From IMG/VR virus record IMGVR_UViG_3300048064_000058, positions 1 to 24,455 of that record: 24,455 nt of DNA; one strand, 5' to 3'. The notes beneath the pieces were generated by a model. It worked only from the letters and a program-made list of their open reading frames with translations, was not told the origin of the DNA and ran no database searches. How positions within the stretch are numbered: the first letter of the stretch is position 1; each line of letters begins with the position of its first letter. The translations under genes were made by a program, and so were the position numbers. Shown piece after piece: positions 3,529 through 20,009 of this stretch. Source of the DNA: a virus.

Positions 3529-4421
3529 TATGCAAACGCATCTTCATCAATGTCTACCAAGTCCTCTACAATGGCATCTGGTATTTCCTCATTGTCATGC
3601 TGCATTTTGTCTCCCCATTCCCCAAGGATATACTGATTGTAGTTAGCAATCCATGCAATGAAGTCAGCAAAGGTAGCCTGTGTATCATTGTCCATGTCCA
3701 GTGTAGACATGAGGTCTAAGTCTGCGGTAGGCAGATAGAAACAACTACCATTGGGTAGGTCACGCTTCTCTGTAGCACAGTCAATGTAATGCTGTGGTGG
3801 AAGGCGTTGCATCTTACCCAACTTAGTAAAGACATTACCAATAATCTTAAAGGCATCACGGTTCTCAACCTCATAGATGAATGGTGTACTAGGTGCTTCA
3901 ACAGGATTACCCTGTGCATCTGTACTGTTCACCATGTCCACAGTACCAAAGAGTACACGCACACGTTTGATAGAACGGATCAACTCTTTCATGCTGTCAG
4001 GCAGACTGTTGAAGTCTTCAATCCAACCAGAAGGTTTACCACAGTTGAAGCCACCGTCATTGTCCTTCATATCTGAGTTTAGGTTGTCACCCATAACAGT
4101 CTTGACATAACGATTAGGTGTAGTGTCACTGCCCATGACAAACTTTTTGTACATGAAACGCTGTAGGAATGGGCGAATCTTTACCTTCTCTGCAAAGTAT
4201 GTAGGCCCATCAGGTATCTCTAGCTTGTATGTACCACCCTCCACTACCTCTACATTTACCTGCTTGCCTTTAACCTCTGCCTGTCCCATGACAGGTGTGT
4301 GGTTGATACGCAGACGGGCAAGCGCACTGGTTTTCTTTTCTCCTGCTGTGTCACCCATGCCCATAGCCTTAGCCATAGCTGCGTAGTTGTTTGTATCAAT
4401 CGTTGTTACTTGATTTGTCAT
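3528..4421 (-). CDS. Putative single-stranded DNA-binding / recombination protein with acidic tail
   Basis: The 297-aa protein has a mixed, probably beta-rich core and a strongly acidic C-terminus (residues 278-297, ending VDIDEDAFA). It resembles the acidic tails of SSB proteins such as T7 gp2.5. It is encoded directly between DNA polymerase and a RecE-like exonuclease, where HMO-2011-type and T7-like phages place ssDNA-binding functions. No OB-fold motif can be proved by eye, so the role is an inference. The start has a strong AAGGAG site, and a near-consensus promoter lies just upstream (4457-4485), consistent with high expression. Confidence 0.5.
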   Translation of the reverse strand: MTNQVTTIDTNNYAAMAKAMGMGDTAGEKKTSALARLRINHTPVMGQAEVKGKQVNVEVVEGGTYKLEIPDGPTYFAEKVKIRPFLQRFMYKKFVMGSDTTPNRYVKTVMGDNLNSDMKDNDGGFNCGKPSGWIEDFNSLPDSMKELIRSIKRVRVLFGTVDMVNSTDAQGNPVEAPSTPFIYEVENRDAFKIIGNVFTKLGKMQRLPPQHYIDCATEKRDLPNGSCFYLPTADLDLMSTLDMDNDTQATFADFIAWIANYNQYILGEWGDKMQHDNEEIPDAIVEDLVDIDEDAFA

Positions 4422-4456: not shown

Positions 4457-4485
4457 GTTATATCATGCTACGTCTTTGGTGTCAA
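4457..4485 (-). promoter_or_regulatory. Near-consensus sigma70-type promoter before the SSB candidate
   Basis: On the minus strand TTGACA (4485-4480) and TATAAC (4462-4457) are separated by exactly 17 bases. The site lies across the 3' end of the polymerase gene and reads toward the SSB candidate, about 36 bases from its start codon. The same hexamer pair and spacing recur at 14754-14782. Confidence 0.7.
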
Positions 4486-6502
4486 GCCAATTCGGGCCAA
4501 TCTTTGCCTCTAATAATAGAGGAATGTTGAAGTCTATATTCCATTTCTTATTGACAATGGATATCAGCCTGTCGTTTGTTCTGTCTATGATCTTGAGTAC
4601 CTTGTCTGTTTCATCAGGGTGTATGTCAAGTACCACACTGTCATGTACGGTGTTGACTATACAACTCTGCATCTTGTTTGCCTCCAACATCTTGTCTATG
4701 TATATCAGACATATAGGTACAATGTCAGCCGTTGCAAAGGATTGCACCGGATAATTTTTTATCTGTGTGAAATATGTCACACCTCCATGTTTGTTACGGG
4801 TAGCATCAGGGAAAGCAAATGCCCTGCCTGATGGTGTGGTAATGCAGCCAGTAGCCAGTACCTCGTCGGCTAGTCTCTTGTGCCATGCAGCAATACCTTT
4901 GTACTTGTCCATGAACTTTGTGTAGTATGCAGCCTCTGCTGGTGTACGTCCATACCCAGTAGCACCGAACAGTGGAGCAAAGGTATGTTCCTTGGCAGCT
5001 TGCCTAGCTGTAGGTTGACCAGCATCTGTGATGGTCTTGGCAGTGTAGGCATGTACATCAAAGCCAGTGATAACCTCGTCAATGGCAACCATGTCTTGAG
5101 ACAGAAATGCAGCGACACGAAACTCTAGCTGTGCAAAGTCAGCTTCCATAATCTGTCCACCATCCCATCGTGATACAAACACACGCTTGACAGGGAATGT
5201 ACCGCCACGTGGCATGTTCTGCATGTTAGGGTCAGCACCTGATAGTCTGCCTGTACCTGTCCTGTGCTGCAGTAGACGGGCATGTAGCTTACCGTCTGCC
5301 TTGGTGTGGGTAGCAATACCACCAATGAAGCTGGCAATGTATACCTCAATGGCATTCAGACGCTTCATGTTCTGTAGAAACTTGACTGCCTCTGGCATCT
5401 GCTTGGCTCTAGCCACACCCTCAAGGTATGTCAGGCTGTCCTTGCCTGTACTGAAACCATTGGCACTGATGAACTTGGCAGTCGGTGCAGTGAATTGTAG
5501 GCCAGCTAACTGGTTAGTATCCACAAAAGTATACCCACAACCATCACACCCGACACACCTGTTGGGTCTTGCAAAAGGAGTTCCATCTTTCTTTACCTTC
5601 CTGATTTGCCCACTACCGTAGCAGGACTTGCATTGTTTTGCCTTCTGTTTGTACAACTTGGTTGAGTGCTTGGTAACGGTAGACTTGAACTTAGCATCTA
5701 CCATACGTCCCTCAAACAATGTAGGCCACACCTTTTTGTCATCAGGCTTACGACCATACACAACCCATGCAAGTTGCTCTGGACTGTTAAGGTTCACAGG
5801 TCTGTCACCCATCAACTCATGTGTATGTGCCTCAAGACTACGCACTAACTCGTCACGTTCATCCTCGTACTCTTTACGTACTGCCTCTAGTGCATCTGTA
5901 TCAACCTTGAAGCCACGCTGATAAATCTTAGCAAGGTGTATAGCAAGTTGGTTAGTCAGATCAACACTGTCCTGCAGGGTAGTACCATCTAGCTTGGCAG
6001 TGATTGTATTGTACAACTGCTGTGTAGCATGTAGGTCATGGGACAAATACTCTGTCAACTCAGCCAAGGGTATGTCACGTGTGGTGTAGCCCTTCTTGAA
6101 ATACTCTTTGAGTGTATCCTGCTTCTGTGTGTCTAATGCGTAACGCTCTGCACATGCATCAAGGGATAGGGGTTGCTTCTGCCCACGCTGTAAGATATAC
6201 TCACCAAGCATGGTGTCAAACACCTTACCATCATATGTAAAGCCTGACTCCCATAACCACAGCAAGTCATGTACAGCATTGTGTGCAACCAGTACAGTAG
6301 TCTTGTCAAGCATTGACTGCACACATTGGTGATCAAATTGTGTACCCTGCTTTTCTGAATGGTCAAAGGTAAAGATGTGTTCGTTACCTGATTGATCCAG
6401 TGTACCTACCTGTGTCAATGAATTGTCTTTCTCAAATGGATCAAGGTGCAGCTTGCCATCACGTGTTGTCGTTGTATTCTCTACGTCTAGTGTCAGTATC
6501 AT
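4463..6502 (-). CDS. Family A DNA polymerase with 3'-5' exonuclease domain and DnaJ-like zinc finger
   Basis: This is the replicative polymerase (679 aa). The N-terminal 3'-5' exonuclease shows Exo I D6/E8, Exo II N75/D79 (HNAVHDLLW) and Exo III Y152/D156. Between exonuclease and palm, residues 291-323 contain CKSCYGSG and CVGCDGCG, two CxxCxGxG motifs like the DnaJ zinc-binding domain; this insertion is the hallmark of HMO-2011-type phages. The polymerase domain has TGRLSGADPNMQNMP (417-431), motif A with D455 and E460, motif B R500-K504-F508-F512-G513, and motif C HDS (H620, D621). The residue equivalent to E. coli Pol I F762 is Phe, and the one equivalent to Y766 is Phe instead of Tyr. It lies 15 bases downstream of thyX. 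Confidence 0.96.
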   Translation of the reverse strand: MILTLDVENTTTTRDGKLHLDPFEKDNSLTQVGTLDQSGNEHIFTFDHSEKQGTQFDHQCVQSMLDKTTVLVAHNAVHDLLWLWESGFTYDGKVFDTMLGEYILQRGQKQPLSLDACAERYALDTQKQDTLKEYFKKGYTTRDIPLAELTEYLSHDLHATQQLYNTITAKLDGTTLQDSVDLTNQLAIHLAKIYQRGFKVDTDALEAVRKEYEDERDELVRSLEAHTHELMGDRPVNLNSPEQLAWVVYGRKPDDKKVWPTLFEGRMVDAKFKSTVTKHSTKLYKQKAKQCKSCYGSGQIRKVKKDGTPFARPNRCVGCDGCGYTFVDTNQLAGLQFTAPTAKFISANGFSTGKDSLTYLEGVARAKQMPEAVKFLQNMKRLNAIEVYIASFIGGIATHTKADGKLHARLLQHRTGTGRLSGADPNMQNMPRGGTFPVKRVFVSRWDGGQIMEADFAQLEFRVAAFLSQDMVAIDEVITGFDVHAYTAKTITDAGQPTARQAAKEHTFAPLFGATGYGRTPAEAAYYTKFMDKYKGIAAWHKRLADEVLATGCITTPSGRAFAFPDATRNKHGGVTYFTQIKNYPVQSFATADIVPICLIYIDKMLEANKMQSCIVNTVHDSVVLDIHPDETDKVLKIIDRTNDRLISIVNKKWNIDFNIPLLLEAKIGPNWLDTKDVA

Positions 6503-8264: not shown

Positions 8265-9484
8265 GCCTCGTACCTCGCTGTCTTGTAGTTCAGATTGGTA
8301 TGTACAATACCATGCCAACCAGACAGTTTGTTCTTGACAACATTGAGGTGACGCATGGTGTCCTCTTCGTCCTGTCCCTCAACAGGTGGATTCTTTGCAA
8401 TCAACAGCATTAGGTCTGCCTCTGCAGCCTTACCTGTACGACTACCTTCCATCATGGATTGGTTGAGTACCACCTTGTTCTCTGCATCAGCAGATAGCTG
8501 AGACATGTAGAAGATAGCGCAGCCATGTTGCTTTGCAATCTGTCTAGCATAGATAGCGTTAGCCTTTAGTGCTTCATCAGGGCGAGAGTAGCCAGAAGTC
8601 TTGGCGAACTTGTCACCCATGTCAAGCACCACAATGTCAGGCTTGTATGTCTTACAGACACTCTCAACCCATGACATGTCACGATCAGTAGCGTCCTTGA
8701 ACTTGACGTTATCCCTGATCTTATCGTATGCAGCCATTGCCTTTGACTTGTTGGCTACAACCTCTTTGGCTTCCATGTTAGAGGCGGCAGTGATGTAGCG
8801 GTGTGCTACACGGTGATAGCCTTCCTCGTTACATAACACAATGCACTTAGCACCCTGCCATGCAAAGCCATTCTCACCAGCAATCAGGCTGGCATGGAAT
8901 GAAGTCTTGCCAGTGTTGGGCCTAGCACCAATCTCAATCAAGTGACCAGCATTAACACCCTCAACCTTACGGGTAAGTGTAGGGATGTTGAATGTCCACT
9001 GGCTCTCAAGACTGTTGAGTGCAAGGATATGATCAATGCTTGTGTCTTCCCATTCAATGTTTAGCTTGGGCGTGAAGTCATCACCATATTGCTCAAGCAT
9101 ATTACGTAGTGGCTCAAGGGTATCCTTTGTACCATTGACATAATCAAAGCCAAGGTTAGCAATGTCCTCACCAATCACCTGTTGGAACAGCTTGGATAGC
9201 ACCTCTTGTGCAATGTCCTCACCCATAGGCTGTTCTCGCTTTACTGTAGCGAACAGCGCACTATAGGCAGTCTTCTGTGCTGTTGTCAGGGTAGCATTGT
9301 TGGACATAAACAACGCCTCAATCTCGTCAGGTGTAACGGTACGCTCATAACGGTGCATTGCACTGTCAATGGCCTTCTTAATCTTGCGTACATCAGGGCT
9401 GAACAATCGTTCTGGACAACGAGAGCCACGATGACTGTCATAAAACTCTTTGTTCATCAGGCTGCGTATTAGTGCTAGTTCCAT
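8261..9484 (-). CDS. DnaB-type replicative DNA helicase
   Basis: This is the probable ring helicase that unwinds the replication fork (407 aa). The N-terminal 150 residues are helical and not strongly conserved. The RecA-like core has Walker A GARPNTGKTS (186-195), a catalytic Glu in LCNEEG (E220), Walker B IVVLDMGD (284-291), a sensor SQL (328-330) and a C-terminal KNKLSGWHG motif (385-393) typical of DnaB and T7 gp4. Primase is a separate gene seven bases upstream, so the T7 gp4 arrangement is split in two. Confidence 0.92.
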   Translation of the reverse strand: MELALIRSLMNKEFYDSHRGSRCPERLFSPDVRKIKKAIDSAMHRYERTVTPDEIEALFMSNNATLTTAQKTAYSALFATVKREQPMGEDIAQEVLSKLFQQVIGEDIANLGFDYVNGTKDTLEPLRNMLEQYGDDFTPKLNIEWEDTSIDHILALNSLESQWTFNIPTLTRKVEGVNAGHLIEIGARPNTGKTSFHASLIAGENGFAWQGAKCIVLCNEEGYHRVAHRYITAASNMEAKEVVANKSKAMAAYDKIRDNVKFKDATDRDMSWVESVCKTYKPDIVVLDMGDKFAKTSGYSRPDEALKANAIYARQIAKQHGCAIFYMSQLSADAENKVVLNQSMMEGSRTGKAAEADLMLLIAKNPPVEGQDEEDTMRHLNVVKNKLSGWHGIVHTNLNYKTARYEA

Positions 9485-9491
9485 GTGGGGT

Positions 9492-10298
9492 CTATCCTTG
9501 TGTTAGGGTTATCAGATTACTTATATCGTCAGGGTTACTATACTTTAAATCGTCTGTCAACTTTAAAACACGTACATCTGAACAGTACGTGCGTAATTCT
9601 TTAGCGAACTTGAGTGACTTGGGTAAAGCATCGGGGTCAAGTGCTACTATTATGGTAGAGAACTGCGACAAGTACCGCTTGTGTCCCTCTGATAATGATG
9701 TACCCAACACAGCCACCCCGACATATACATCATCATCTTTGGCATCCAGCTTTAGATCGTTGTTCACTGTCGCACCTACAACTGCAGCACTCACGCTGTC
9801 CTCTACCACTACAGCGACATTACCACATCCACAATGGTATGGCAAGTCACTATTACCATATCTTTTCCATTTAGGTATTCTTTTTCCCAGTGATCTACCT
9901 GATCCATCAACTATACAACCTCTGTCATCTAGCACAGGAAAGACTATACGGTGATCCTTTACGTCATACAATACAATAACATCTTCAGATGATAGGCCAT
10001 ACTGTTTAAGAAAATCCCAACACTCAGGCCCATCATTAACTAGGTAGTCAGGCTTTACAAATGGGGAAGGGTCTAGCTCGTCAGTCATATAACCAAGTGC
10101 CTTACGAACATCACCAACAGATAGTGCCACATTTGTACCGCCGCTGACAGTACAACTAGCCTTGTAACAATTCCAAACAATCTTACCCATAGTATTAGTA
10201 ATAGTAAATGTATTCTTAGCATGACACACTGGACATGCCATACGTTTACTGTCACCAACACTTAGCTGTAAGTCATTTATAATTTCTATTATGTTCAT
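9492..10298 (-). CDS. DNA primase (zinc finger plus TOPRIM)
   Basis: The protein makes RNA primers for the helicase and polymerase. The N-terminal zinc-binding part has C22, C25, C44 and C49 (ACPVC and CYKASC), as in T7-type primases. The TOPRIM part shows VVVEDS (E166) and VALDPDA (D221, D223), with conserved segments RIVFPV and DGSGRSLGKR between. The protein is 268 aa from the ATG at 10298, which overlaps the integrase stop as ATGA; a TTG two codons upstream is less likely. Confidence 0.9.
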   Translation of the reverse strand: MNIIEIINDLQLSVGDSKRMACPVCHAKNTFTITNTMGKIVWNCYKASCTVSGGTNVALSVGDVRKALGYMTDELDPSPFVKPDYLVNDGPECWDFLKQYGLSSEDVIVLYDVKDHRIVFPVLDDRGCIVDGSGRSLGKRIPKWKRYGNSDLPYHCGCGNVAVVVEDSVSAAVVGATVNNDLKLDAKDDDVYVGVAVLGTSLSEGHKRYLSQFSTIIVALDPDALPKSLKFAKELRTYCSDVRVLKLTDDLKYSNPDDISNLITLTQG

Positions 10299-11419
10299 AG
10301 CCAATCACTTTCAATGTTCTTCGTTACACTCAATTCTACATGAGCATTACGTGCTGTCAAGGCTTTATTAGCAGAGGCGAATGTATTTTTTATGTATGGT
10401 TTCACAGATGCAACATGTGTGTGACCAGTAACAGCCATCAACTGTGGCAATGGTACACCTGCCTCAACCATTTGTGTTACCCCTGTCCTACGTAAGTCCA
10501 TAAGGCGTAGGCTTTCTGGTAACTCAGCCTCTCGCATTACCCTACGTCCTACTTTAGATAGTCTTTCCATGCCATAGGGTTTGAACGTACCACCTACAGG
10601 TGTAGGGTGGGGTGCAACATAAGGCTGAAAGCCGTAGTCCTCATGCTGTTCCTTGAGCATTACATGTAACTGATCATCAATGGGTAGGAACACCTCTGCC
10701 CTACGCTTAGACTGTTCAAGGTACATGCGCTGCCTGTCTAAGTCAAGGGCATCCCACGTAAGCATACGCATGTCACCTAGTCTTTGACACCACTGATAGG
10801 CCATAGCCACGATCATGCCCACGTTACGGTACTTGTACTTACTGAAGGCGGTGTCCATAAAGTTAGTCACATCAGCATGTTCCCATACTACCTTACGTTG
10901 TGGTGTAGCCTTACGCTTAATGTTGGTGAAAGGATTAGTGTTAATCTGTTCCATTTCAATGGCGTAGTTAAAGACACGGCTGGCACAGGTAGCACCATGA
11001 TTGGCAAAGCTAATGCCTTGCTCAACCCACTGTTCATACAAATGCTTTGCAACCTTAGAGGTAACATCACCATGCCTCATGTGACCTATGGCATTGTCCA
11101 GTAGACCAATGAAGTACCTGTAATGTACCTTAGTTGTATTACGTAACGCCTTGAAATCATTAGAGGCAAAGTAATACTGTGACAAATTTGCAACAGTGCT
11201 GCTTGGCTTAACATTGAATATCAATGCCTGTTCTTCACGGTACTTGTCAACTAAGTCATTCAACTCTTTGGCGAGTACCTTAACCTGTTTAAGATCAGTA
11301 CCCCATTCCTTGCGGCTCACCACCCCAGCATCAACAAGAGACTGAGGTGGGTTGAAGCGATAAGACACTACACCCTTGGGTTGTTTACGTGGCTGTACAT
11401 ATCGTGGCAACTTAGTCAT
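10295..11419 (-). CDS. int: Tyrosine recombinase / phage integrase
   Basis: This site-specific recombinase (374 aa) would integrate the phage into the host chromosome. An N-terminal arm-binding and core-binding part is followed by the catalytic domain: R213 (QRLGDMRML), K238 (QSKRR), box II DLRRTGVT with R310, TGH with H333, and the nucleophile Y342 (KPYIKN). The first position of the HxxR box is Met (M307); related alphaproteobacterial phage integrases often lack this His too. It is embedded in the replication operon, overlapping primase by four bases and abutting the DUF932 gene. No attachment site is visible next to it. Confidence 0.9.
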   Translation of the reverse strand: MTKLPRYVQPRKQPKGVVSYRFNPPQSLVDAGVVSRKEWGTDLKQVKVLAKELNDLVDKYREEQALIFNVKPSSTVANLSQYYFASNDFKALRNTTKVHYRYFIGLLDNAIGHMRHGDVTSKVAKHLYEQWVEQGISFANHGATCASRVFNYAIEMEQINTNPFTNIKRKATPQRKVVWEHADVTNFMDTAFSKYKYRNVGMIVAMAYQWCQRLGDMRMLTWDALDLDRQRMYLEQSKRRAEVFLPIDDQLHVMLKEQHEDYGFQPYVAPHPTPVGGTFKPYGMERLSKVGRRVMREAELPESLRLMDLRRTGVTQMVEAGVPLPQLMAVTGHTHVASVKPYIKNTFASANKALTARNAHVELSVTKNIESDWL

Positions 11420-14542: not shown

Positions 14543-14718
14543 TACAGTTTGTCCCTATAGTTTAGGCATACATCATAGCCCAAGTTTTTTATCTCTTGTA
14601 TTGTCTCAAAGGTTAAGGTCTTTGTACCTGCAATATTTGCAAATGCTTTTGCCTTGTCACATGCGGGGTACACCATTGTGTTTCCGTACACTGATCTTTC
14701 GTTTACGTATATGTTCAT
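14542..14718 (-). CDS. Hypothetical small protein (58 aa), first gene after a strong promoter
   Basis: The ORF begins MNIYVNERSVYGNTMVYPA, with a helix CDKAKAFANIAGTKTLTFE and an ending LGYDVCLNYRDKL, resembling a compact alpha/beta fold. It is the first gene after the consensus promoter at 14754-14782. Its start overlaps the stop of a 5-codon ORF (14732-14715) as ATGA. No family is recognised. Confidence 0.55.
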   Translation of the reverse strand: MNIYVNERSVYGNTMVYPACDKAKAFANIAGTKTLTFETIQEIKNLGYDVCLNYRDKL

Positions 14719-14751: not shown

Positions 14752-14797
14752 AAGTTATATAAGTACCATAGGGAGGTGTCAAGTACTTATATAACTT
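14752..14797. promoter_or_regulatory. Promoter flanked by a 15-bp perfect inverted repeat (putative operator)
   Basis: AAGTTATATAAGTAC (14752-14766) and its exact reverse complement (14783-14797) flank 16 bases. On the minus strand TTGACA (14782-14777) and TATAAC (14759-14754) are 17 bases apart, so the -10 box lies in one arm and the -35 box lies in the spacer. Each arm has a TTATATAA core, and the cores are 32 bp apart, close to three helical turns. This is the arrangement expected for a repressor acting on two sites around a promoter. It reads leftward into the 58-aa gene. Confidence 0.7.
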
Positions 14798-19601: not shown

Positions 19602-19666
19602 TTCAACCCTTTCCGTTGTGTTGATCGTGCATAGCGGGAATGCATTAATAGCTGTAGTTATTTAAA

Positions 19667-19723
19667 CTTGAACATGGTATAACTATCTTATGGTTAAACA
19701 TAAGGAGACATACCATGTTCAAG
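19667..19723 (+). promoter_or_regulatory. 14-bp perfect stem sequestering RBS and start codon of the DUF1127 gene
   Basis: CTTGAACATGGTAT (19667-19680) is the exact reverse complement of ATACCATGTTCAAG (19710-19723). The right arm includes the ATG at 19715. Within the 29-base loop CTTATG (19687-19692) pairs with CATAAG (19699-19704), covering part of the AAGGAG site (19702-19707). Folded mRNA would therefore hide both the ribosome binding site and the start codon. This is a candidate cis-regulatory RNA (thermosensor, autoregulatory site or antisense target), or a palindromic operator at the DNA level. Confidence 0.75.
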
Positions 19724-19855
19724 AATATTATTAAAACAATACAACAAGCACAAGAACGTAGAGTAGCATACTGGCAATTACAACATATGTCAGATAAAGC
19801 TCTTAGAGACATAGGAGTAACAAGAGGTGAAATCAGGCAAAAAGTCTACCGTTAA
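19715..19855 (+). CDS. DUF1127 small protein (YjiS-like), 46 aa
   Basis: The protein MFKNIIKTIQQAQERRVAYW is followed by QLQHMSDKALRDIGVTRGEI, the DUF1127 core (L..MSD..L.DIG..R..I). DUF1127 proteins are typical of Alphaproteobacteria; one from Rhodobacter sphaeroides, CcaF1, is an RNA-binding protein affecting sRNA maturation and RNA turnover. A phage copy could interfere with host RNA metabolism, which is inference. It has a strong AAGGAG site placed inside a hairpin (19667-19723), and its end overlaps the next gene. Confidence 0.85.
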   Translation: MFKNIIKTIQQAQERRVAYWQLQHMSDKALRDIGVTRGEIRQKVYR

Positions 19856-20009
19856 TGCGGCAGGTAATTATACTAAGCCTAGTATGCGTAAGCGTATTTT
19901 TAATTCCGTTAAAGCTGGCAGCAAAGGTGGAAGCCCCGGCCAGTGGTCGGCCCGTAAAGCACAGCTTGTTGCCTCTCGTTACAAGAAAGCTGGGGGAGGA
20001 TACAAGTAA
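19827..20009 (+). CDS. Small basic conserved phage protein (60 aa)
   Basis: Starting at GTG 19827, inside the end of the DUF1127 gene, it encodes STVNAAGNYTKPSMRKRIFN followed by GSKGGSPGQWSARKAQLVAS and ends in GGGYK. Versions of this NYTKP...GGxPGQWSARKAQ protein are widespread in marine phages, function unknown. It is Lys/Arg/Gly-rich. AGGAG lies about nine bases before the GTG. The overlap of 29 bases with DUF1127 suggests coupling. Confidence 0.78.
   Translation: MKSGKKSTVNAAGNYTKPSMRKRIFNSVKAGSKGGSPGQWSARKAQLVASRYKKAGGGYK

Follow-up and report, generated by a model that had tools for sequence, protein, structure and literature searches.

The DUF1127 locus

The DNA analysed here (the window, 24,455 bases in full) is a virus record that represents a contig of an HMO-2011-type marine phage. 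DNA matches connected it to the CRP phages and to HMO-2011, and the roseophages of the CRP series are its closest named relatives. Phages of this type rank among the most abundant marine viruses and are recognised by a DNA polymerase with an inserted partial DnaJ zinc domain together with a common gene neighbourhood (PMC9038755). Indeed, the DNA polymerase encoded by the open reading frame at 4463–6502 carried DnaJ-like zinc repeats of the CxxCxGxG type, in keeping with membership in this group. A putative tyrosine integrase, recognised by inspection at 10295–11419 on the minus strand, adjoins the replication genes and suggests a temperate phage; integration has been shown for the related phage CRP-3 (PMC9038755).

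An earlier note on this DNA had assigned the short gene at 19715 to the DUF1127 family. The profile search agreed: its product matched Pfam PF06568 with 39.9 bits (curated cut-off 23.3), and it shared 62–66% identity with the proteins of roseophages CRP-738, CRP-235 and CRP-3. Within this protein family, Rhodobacter CcaF1 binds RNA, while other members bind PhoR (PMC12501420). The genes upstream of the hairpin described below (before 19602) are co-oriented with the DUF1127 gene, and no intrinsic terminator was called on the plus strand from these genes to the hairpin. An endolysin gene lies downstream in this DNA; in the CRP phages, the genes that follow include those for lysis, terminase and structural proteins. 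The next open reading frame (19827–20009) begins within the 3′ end of the DUF1127 gene, and its translation may be coupled to that of DUF1127 because of the 29-nt overlap. The features of the leader are as follows.

19629–19644, plus strand: conserved upstream motif GCATAGCGGGAATGCA (family consensus GCATAACGGGgTTGCA), from the anchored leaders
19640–19668, plus strand: possible promoter P1, with a -35-like ATGCAT (19640–19645), 17 nt and a -10-like TAAACT (19663–19668)
19667–19680, plus strand: left arm of the outer stem, CTTGAACATGGTAT, exact reverse complement of the right arm, from the RNA fold
19675–19683, plus strand: putative promoter P2, extended -10 TGGTATAAC inside the left arm, from its fixed spacing; predicted start A19690
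19687–19692, plus strand: left arm of the inner stem, CTTATG, from the RNA fold
19699–19704, plus strand: right arm of the inner stem, CATAAG, overlapping the Shine-Dalgarno sequence, from the RNA fold
19702–19707, plus strand: Shine-Dalgarno sequence AAGGAG, 7 nt 5′ of the ATG, from the sequence
19710–19723, plus strand: right arm of the outer stem, ATACCATGTTCAAG, holding the start codon and codon 2, from the RNA fold
19715–19855, plus strand: DUF1127 gene, 46 amino acids (PF06568, E 3.5e-10)

A hairpin over the ribosome binding site

As the earlier note had described, the outer arms form a perfect 14-bp stem with 29 nt in between, the start codon (19715–19717) is contained in the right arm, and the nested inner stem covers part of the Shine-Dalgarno sequence. 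The RNA folding that the note had called for gave –30.8 kcal/mol for positions 19640–19760, compared to –14.5 kcal/mol for dinucleotide shuffles (z –6.0; none of 200 shuffles was as good). When all gene starts were subjected to a common test (–70 to +15), the DUF1127 leader displayed the lowest z of the 47 window genes (–7.8). The pairing of its ribosome binding site (RBS) to upstream RNA (0.86) was likewise the maximum of the window, where the median was 0.31. The action of the hairpin on the RBS and start codon, as read by the earlier note, is supported. The DUF1127 leader was also the most extreme fold in each of the three other phages tested, namely CRP-1 (z –4.5, 58 genes), CRP-207 (–5.6, 61 genes) and CRP-235 (–6.7, 56 genes).

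Recurrence in related phages

Annotated phages and three viral-contig scans provided 255 sequences including the window, and in 253 of these the leader was long enough. These leaders were grouped into 77 clusters (at most 8 edits); four cobavirus and Sinorhizobium loci were set aside and 74 non-redundant leaders, representing HMO-2011-type relatives, were tested further. Their mean fold z was –3.4, and 72% of them fell below –2. Since RBS-locking stems recur in relatives with different arms, chance is excluded as an explanation for the stem, which the note had already judged very unlikely to be accidental. Conversely, the 34 bacterial DUF1127 leaders, whose start codons were only roughly assigned, showed a mean z of –0.6, with 15% below –2. 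The feature was therefore absent from the host loci in which the note had proposed to look for it, and a derivation of the hairpin from host DUF1127 leaders was rejected on these roughly assigned starts. The lack of the hairpin in alphaproteobacterial host leaders indicates that it belongs to the phage genes rather than to the protein family as a whole. A scan of genome contigs returned only five distant bacterial relatives and no related prophage.

The DUF1127 genes of SIO1-like cobaviruses and of a Sinorhizobium phage were kept outside the statistics, as their contexts differ. In three cobaviruses (L010, L011 and L015) a DUF1127-like open reading frame, left unannotated in the SIO1 record, lies directly 5′ of the ribonucleotide reductase gene and does not carry this leader. 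In the unrelated Sinorhizobium phage phiM7 (L014, 1431–1515), a stem was predicted over the Shine-Dalgarno sequence AAAAGG of the DUF1127 gene, which may be an independent case.

Covariation of the arms

The note had further suggested that the arms should be checked for covariation in related phages. We paired the left region of each leader with its own RBS region and with permuted partners. The mean duplex energy was –13.7 kcal/mol for own partners and –9.8 to –9.9 kcal/mol for permuted ones (z –11.3), and none of 20,000 permutations was as low. The difference persisted with 15 strict representatives (z –6.3). The own partner was seldom the single best one (median rank 10–12), as arms are common to relatives. 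An alignment of the window clade (A5, 24 sequences) had 86.5% of its cells paired, compared to 34–47% in slid versions, and left-arm pairs were preserved at several positions through compensatory or wobble changes. For instance, codon 2 (TTT or TTC) covaried with A or G in the left arm, yielding 15 AU pairs, 7 GC pairs and 2 unpaired cases. The part of the outer arm that lies 5′ of both predicted starts remained paired as well. Of five covariation measures applied to the clade, one did not clearly exceed shuffles and a second fell below them. As pairs with changes on both sides were not clearly above shuffles (68/500) in this clade, we regard the swap test as the stronger evidence. For whole leaders, the sense RNA was more stable than the antisense RNA beyond shuffles (p 2e-6), while the G–U strand asymmetry of the arms alone (1.45 versus 1.10 kcal/mol with swapped partners) was barely higher and was not relied upon.

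Putative promoter elements and an upstream motif

The leader contains two elements that the earlier note had missed, an upstream motif and a putative promoter in the left arm. A motif of the type GCATARCGGG(N)WTGC, with the near-invariant core T-A-R-C-G-G-G...T-G-C, was found in 71 of 72 non-redundant leaders. In the window and in CRP-1 it occurs a single time (up to 3 mismatches), 5′ of DUF1127. In CRP-207 and CRP-235 it has diverged and matches a looser pattern only. The copy at 19629–19644 is likely to be a regulator site or a -35 region. In the window (19610–19640) and in L024, L025 and L070 the motif could also pair with the sequence directly 5′ of it (for example TGCAATCCC/GGGGTTGCA).

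The ATG is found 77 to 110 nt from the motif, depending on the leader. A TAWAAC or TATAAT hexamer, by contrast, is found 47–50 nt past the motif start in all 71 anchored leaders; in 51% of the leaders it is preceded by TG in the extended -10 position. Because a recognisable -35 is absent at P2, its activity is inferred from the -10 element, the TG extension and the spacing. TATAAC may plausibly serve as a -10 in these phages, as suggested by its occurrence elsewhere at 17 nt from a perfect TTGACA: TTGACA-N17 with TGATATAAC precedes the window gene starting at 4421 (minus strand) and is found at the matching position of CRP-1. The perfect TTGACA-N17-TATAAC with TGA extension lies at 4457–4485 (minus strand) in the window and at 8458–8486 (plus strand) in L256, directly 5′ of CRP-1 gp20.

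A second candidate promoter, P1, is present in about 30 of the 71 leaders as a TTGC-type -35 (TTGCAA-like), N17 and TATAAC, with the -10 at offset 33; it is weak in the window. Its spacing from the upstream motif is fixed in the anchored alignment, and wherever both are present the -10-like elements of P1 and P2 lie a fixed 14–15 nt apart.

RBS accessibility as a function of the RNA 5′ end

For each leader, we varied the position at which the RNA starts and computed the energy that opening of the RBS would require in each case. The mean over 71 leaders was 12.5 kcal/mol for a long RNA, 10.2 kcal/mol for RNA from P1 and 3.8 kcal/mol for RNA from the predicted P2 start. Counted from the first base of TAWAAC, the energy reached its floor at about +12; half of the drop had already occurred at or before +12 in 71 of 71 leaders. 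After shuffling of the flanks the drop was 1.0 instead of the observed 8.7 (p 3e-13). In the window, the opening energy was 22.0 kcal/mol until the 5′ end passed 19666, 10.2 kcal/mol at 19676 and 4.5 kcal/mol at 19690. In the positive control, gene e of phage T4, the energy began at 16.4 and had dropped to 4.1 at +12 of its TATAAATA.

The left arm lies 5′ of the start that the -10 element of P2 would give. In CRP-738, CRP-235 and L088 the whole left arm is even 5′ of the -10 element (half-drop at –17 to –20), and these leaders showed no promoter whose RNA could contain the left arm. Since the left arm precedes the -10 element, only read-through RNA can fold in these three cases. In 40 leaders with a long P2 5′UTR, a small stem-loop follows 1–11 nt past the predicted P2 start (mean –7.0 versus –2.3 for shuffles), as would be expected of a true 5′ end.

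A proposed read-through silencer

We consider it probable that the leader works as a read-through silencer in the manner of T4 gene e and I-TevI, with a sigma70-like promoter placed in the stem. RNA begun in the co-oriented upstream genes would carry both arms, fold and hide the RBS, so that DUF1127 would not be made. RNA from P2 would begin near A19690 without the left arm, and its RBS would be open for translation. If read-through RNA is blocked and P2 RNA is open, DUF1127 output would follow its own promoter only and not regional transcription, and the motif at 19629–19644 would be the likely control site of this promoter. As lysis, packaging and structural genes come after DUF1127, we guess that the gene uses its own promoter late and is silenced on read-through RNA early in infection, as in T4, though the opposite order is possible. 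The hairpin and the finding that it is conserved and covaries, together with the -10 element at its fixed spacing, the geometry and the agreement with T4 gene e, are computed results; we infer the use of the -10 element, read-through, the translation block and the infection stage at which the promoter is used. A literature search for published roseophage transcriptomes gave none that were usable. The earlier note had held that a transcription start inside the loop, leaving the left arm out of the mRNA, would speak against its proposal. Such a start is close to the anatomy predicted for the own promoter, yet this does not render the hairpin meaningless, as it most likely acts on read-through RNA.

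Several observations count against the silencer: the absence of a recognisable -35 at P2, the barely raised strand asymmetry of the arms alone, and the two covariation measures of the window clade that did not clearly exceed shuffles. In addition, RNA from P1, in the roughly 30 of 71 leaders that have a good promoter of this kind 14–15 nt upstream, would retain most of the hairpin and be silenced too, which the simple model does not explain. A choice between the P1 and P2 starts under one motif could be the actual switch, with only the P2 mRNA being translatable; we regard this extension as rather unlikely. If it were true, a regulator would toggle DUF1127 while leaving transcription of the downstream lysis, packaging and structural genes unchanged, and would provide a late control point that keeps a host-directed RNA-binding or PhoR-binding protein off until then.

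Alternative explanations

The presence of a good P1 in these leaders, with its predicted start just before the left arm, also agrees with a riboregulator served by a single promoter, in which the P1 mRNA begins with the left arm and a trans factor (DUF1127, an sRNA or a helper protein) opens the hairpin. RNA binding by Rhodobacter DUF1127 proteins (PMC12501420) fits this idea. However, the window clade and the TATGCC/TATTCC class have at most a weak P1, P1 RNA of CRP-738, CRP-235 and L088 would not contain the left arm (fraction before T1, 1.00), TAWAAC is conserved even where it is unpaired, and the arms are wholly different among phages and share no common protein-binding core. We thus consider this explanation rather unlikely. 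Likewise, the autoregulation by the DUF1127 protein that the earlier note had envisaged found no support: the arms are replaced entirely from phage to phage although the protein family remains the same, and nothing specific points to DUF1127 binding. The arrangement of P1 and TAWAAC allows yet another reading, namely that TAWAAC is a pause element of the lambda pR′ type, sigma-dependent and located at about +3 of P1, in an antitermination-type late promoter, the hairpin being a separate layer. A unique promoter before lysis, packaging and structural genes, as proposed here, resembles pR′ of phage lambda; the fixed 14–15 nt between the -10-like elements, where both exist, is compatible as well. 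Against this, TAWAAC or TATAAT is equally conserved in leaders without P1, including a perfect TGNTATAAT in CRP-738, CRP-235 and L088, and we judge the pause element improbable.

A DNA-level operator, i.e. a protein-binding dyad around the promoter with incidental RNA folding, would account for the overlap of the repeat with the -10-like elements and for the unusual folds of antisense leaders (mean z –2.8). It would not account for a right arm that always falls on the Shine-Dalgarno sequence and/or start codon, for arm sequences that change completely yet co-vary, or for the excess stability of sense over antisense leaders beyond shuffles, and thus appears very unlikely. The temperature or salt sensor proposed by the earlier note agrees with an RBS locked in a stem. 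The predicted opening energy of the window leader, 22 kcal/mol at 37 °C and 26.6 kcal/mol at 20 °C, nonetheless indicates a hairpin whose stability is much too high for it to open at the temperatures of the sea. An RNA thermometer melting in the physiological range was rejected on the 37 °C value, and an Rfam search of the leader found no family at the curated threshold, its sub-threshold microRNA-like hairpin matches being chance; a sensor of this kind is extremely unlikely.

Relation to known systems

In T4 genes e, soc, 49, I-TevI and segB and in mobE of phage Aeh1, a hairpin hides the RBS and a late promoter lies in its left arm; for gene e, the early long RNA is blocked and the late RNA is free (PMC3014915, PMC2988022). 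As in gene e, the Shine-Dalgarno sequence and/or AUG of DUF1127 is hidden by a helix in the long RNA, as judged by z and opening energy, the -10 element lies within the left arm or next to it, and the gene is located 3′ of co-oriented genes. The opening-energy curves are nearly identical, and a -10 element with the geometry for RNA without the left arm was present in 71 of 71 leaders, its start being predicted only. Unlike gene e, the leader belongs to an unrelated phage group and gene family, has an additional upstream motif and often the second promoter P1, and varies widely in its arms among HMO-2011-type relatives while keeping the geometry. The T4 late promoter (TATAAATA, read by the gp55 sigma factor) was not found; the element here is the sigma70-like TATAAC, TAAAAC or TATAAT.

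In Escherichia coli pyrC, a start-site shift of a few nt with nucleotide pools decides whether a Shine-Dalgarno-hiding hairpin forms. The choice of nearby starts would be decisive here as well, but these would be 14–15 nt apart or in upstream genes. The transposase genes of IS10 and IS50 are protected from read-through, and share with the proposed silencer that the RBS is blocked by folding only in RNA begun outside. There, the element's inverted repeats are used and the arrangement serves transposons, to whose proteins DUF1127 is unrelated. The leader of a Sinorhizobium meliloti DUF1127 gene also keeps its gene off, albeit by a uORF and transcription attenuation, presumably Rho-dependent, and has no RBS-locking promoter hairpin (PMC12218461).

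The class of mechanism is thus already known, mainly from phage T4. The novelty lies in the phage group and gene family concerned, in the sigma70-like element, in a tandem promoter accompanied by an upstream motif, and in how widely the arrangement is conserved. When full texts were searched for this combination, a review of T4 mobile elements and a Salmonella prophage paper came up. Our findings would extend a textbook T4 mechanism to unrelated, globally important phages, for which about 70 divergent natural versions are strong evolutionary evidence. We found nothing published on the timing of gene expression in HMO-2011-type phages; the leader offers a switch that can be tested, along with a candidate regulator site apparently present once per genome. 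It also suggests that production of a DUF1127 protein, whose class is known to touch host RNA turnover and phosphate sensing, needs strict timing in infection.

A further dyad was observed elsewhere in the window. At 14752–14797, a 15-bp perfect dyad (AAGTTATATAAGTAC/GTACTTATATAACTT) surrounds a minus-strand consensus TTGACA-N17-TATAAC upstream of a small open reading frame starting at 14718 (minus strand). This looks like an operator-controlled promoter.
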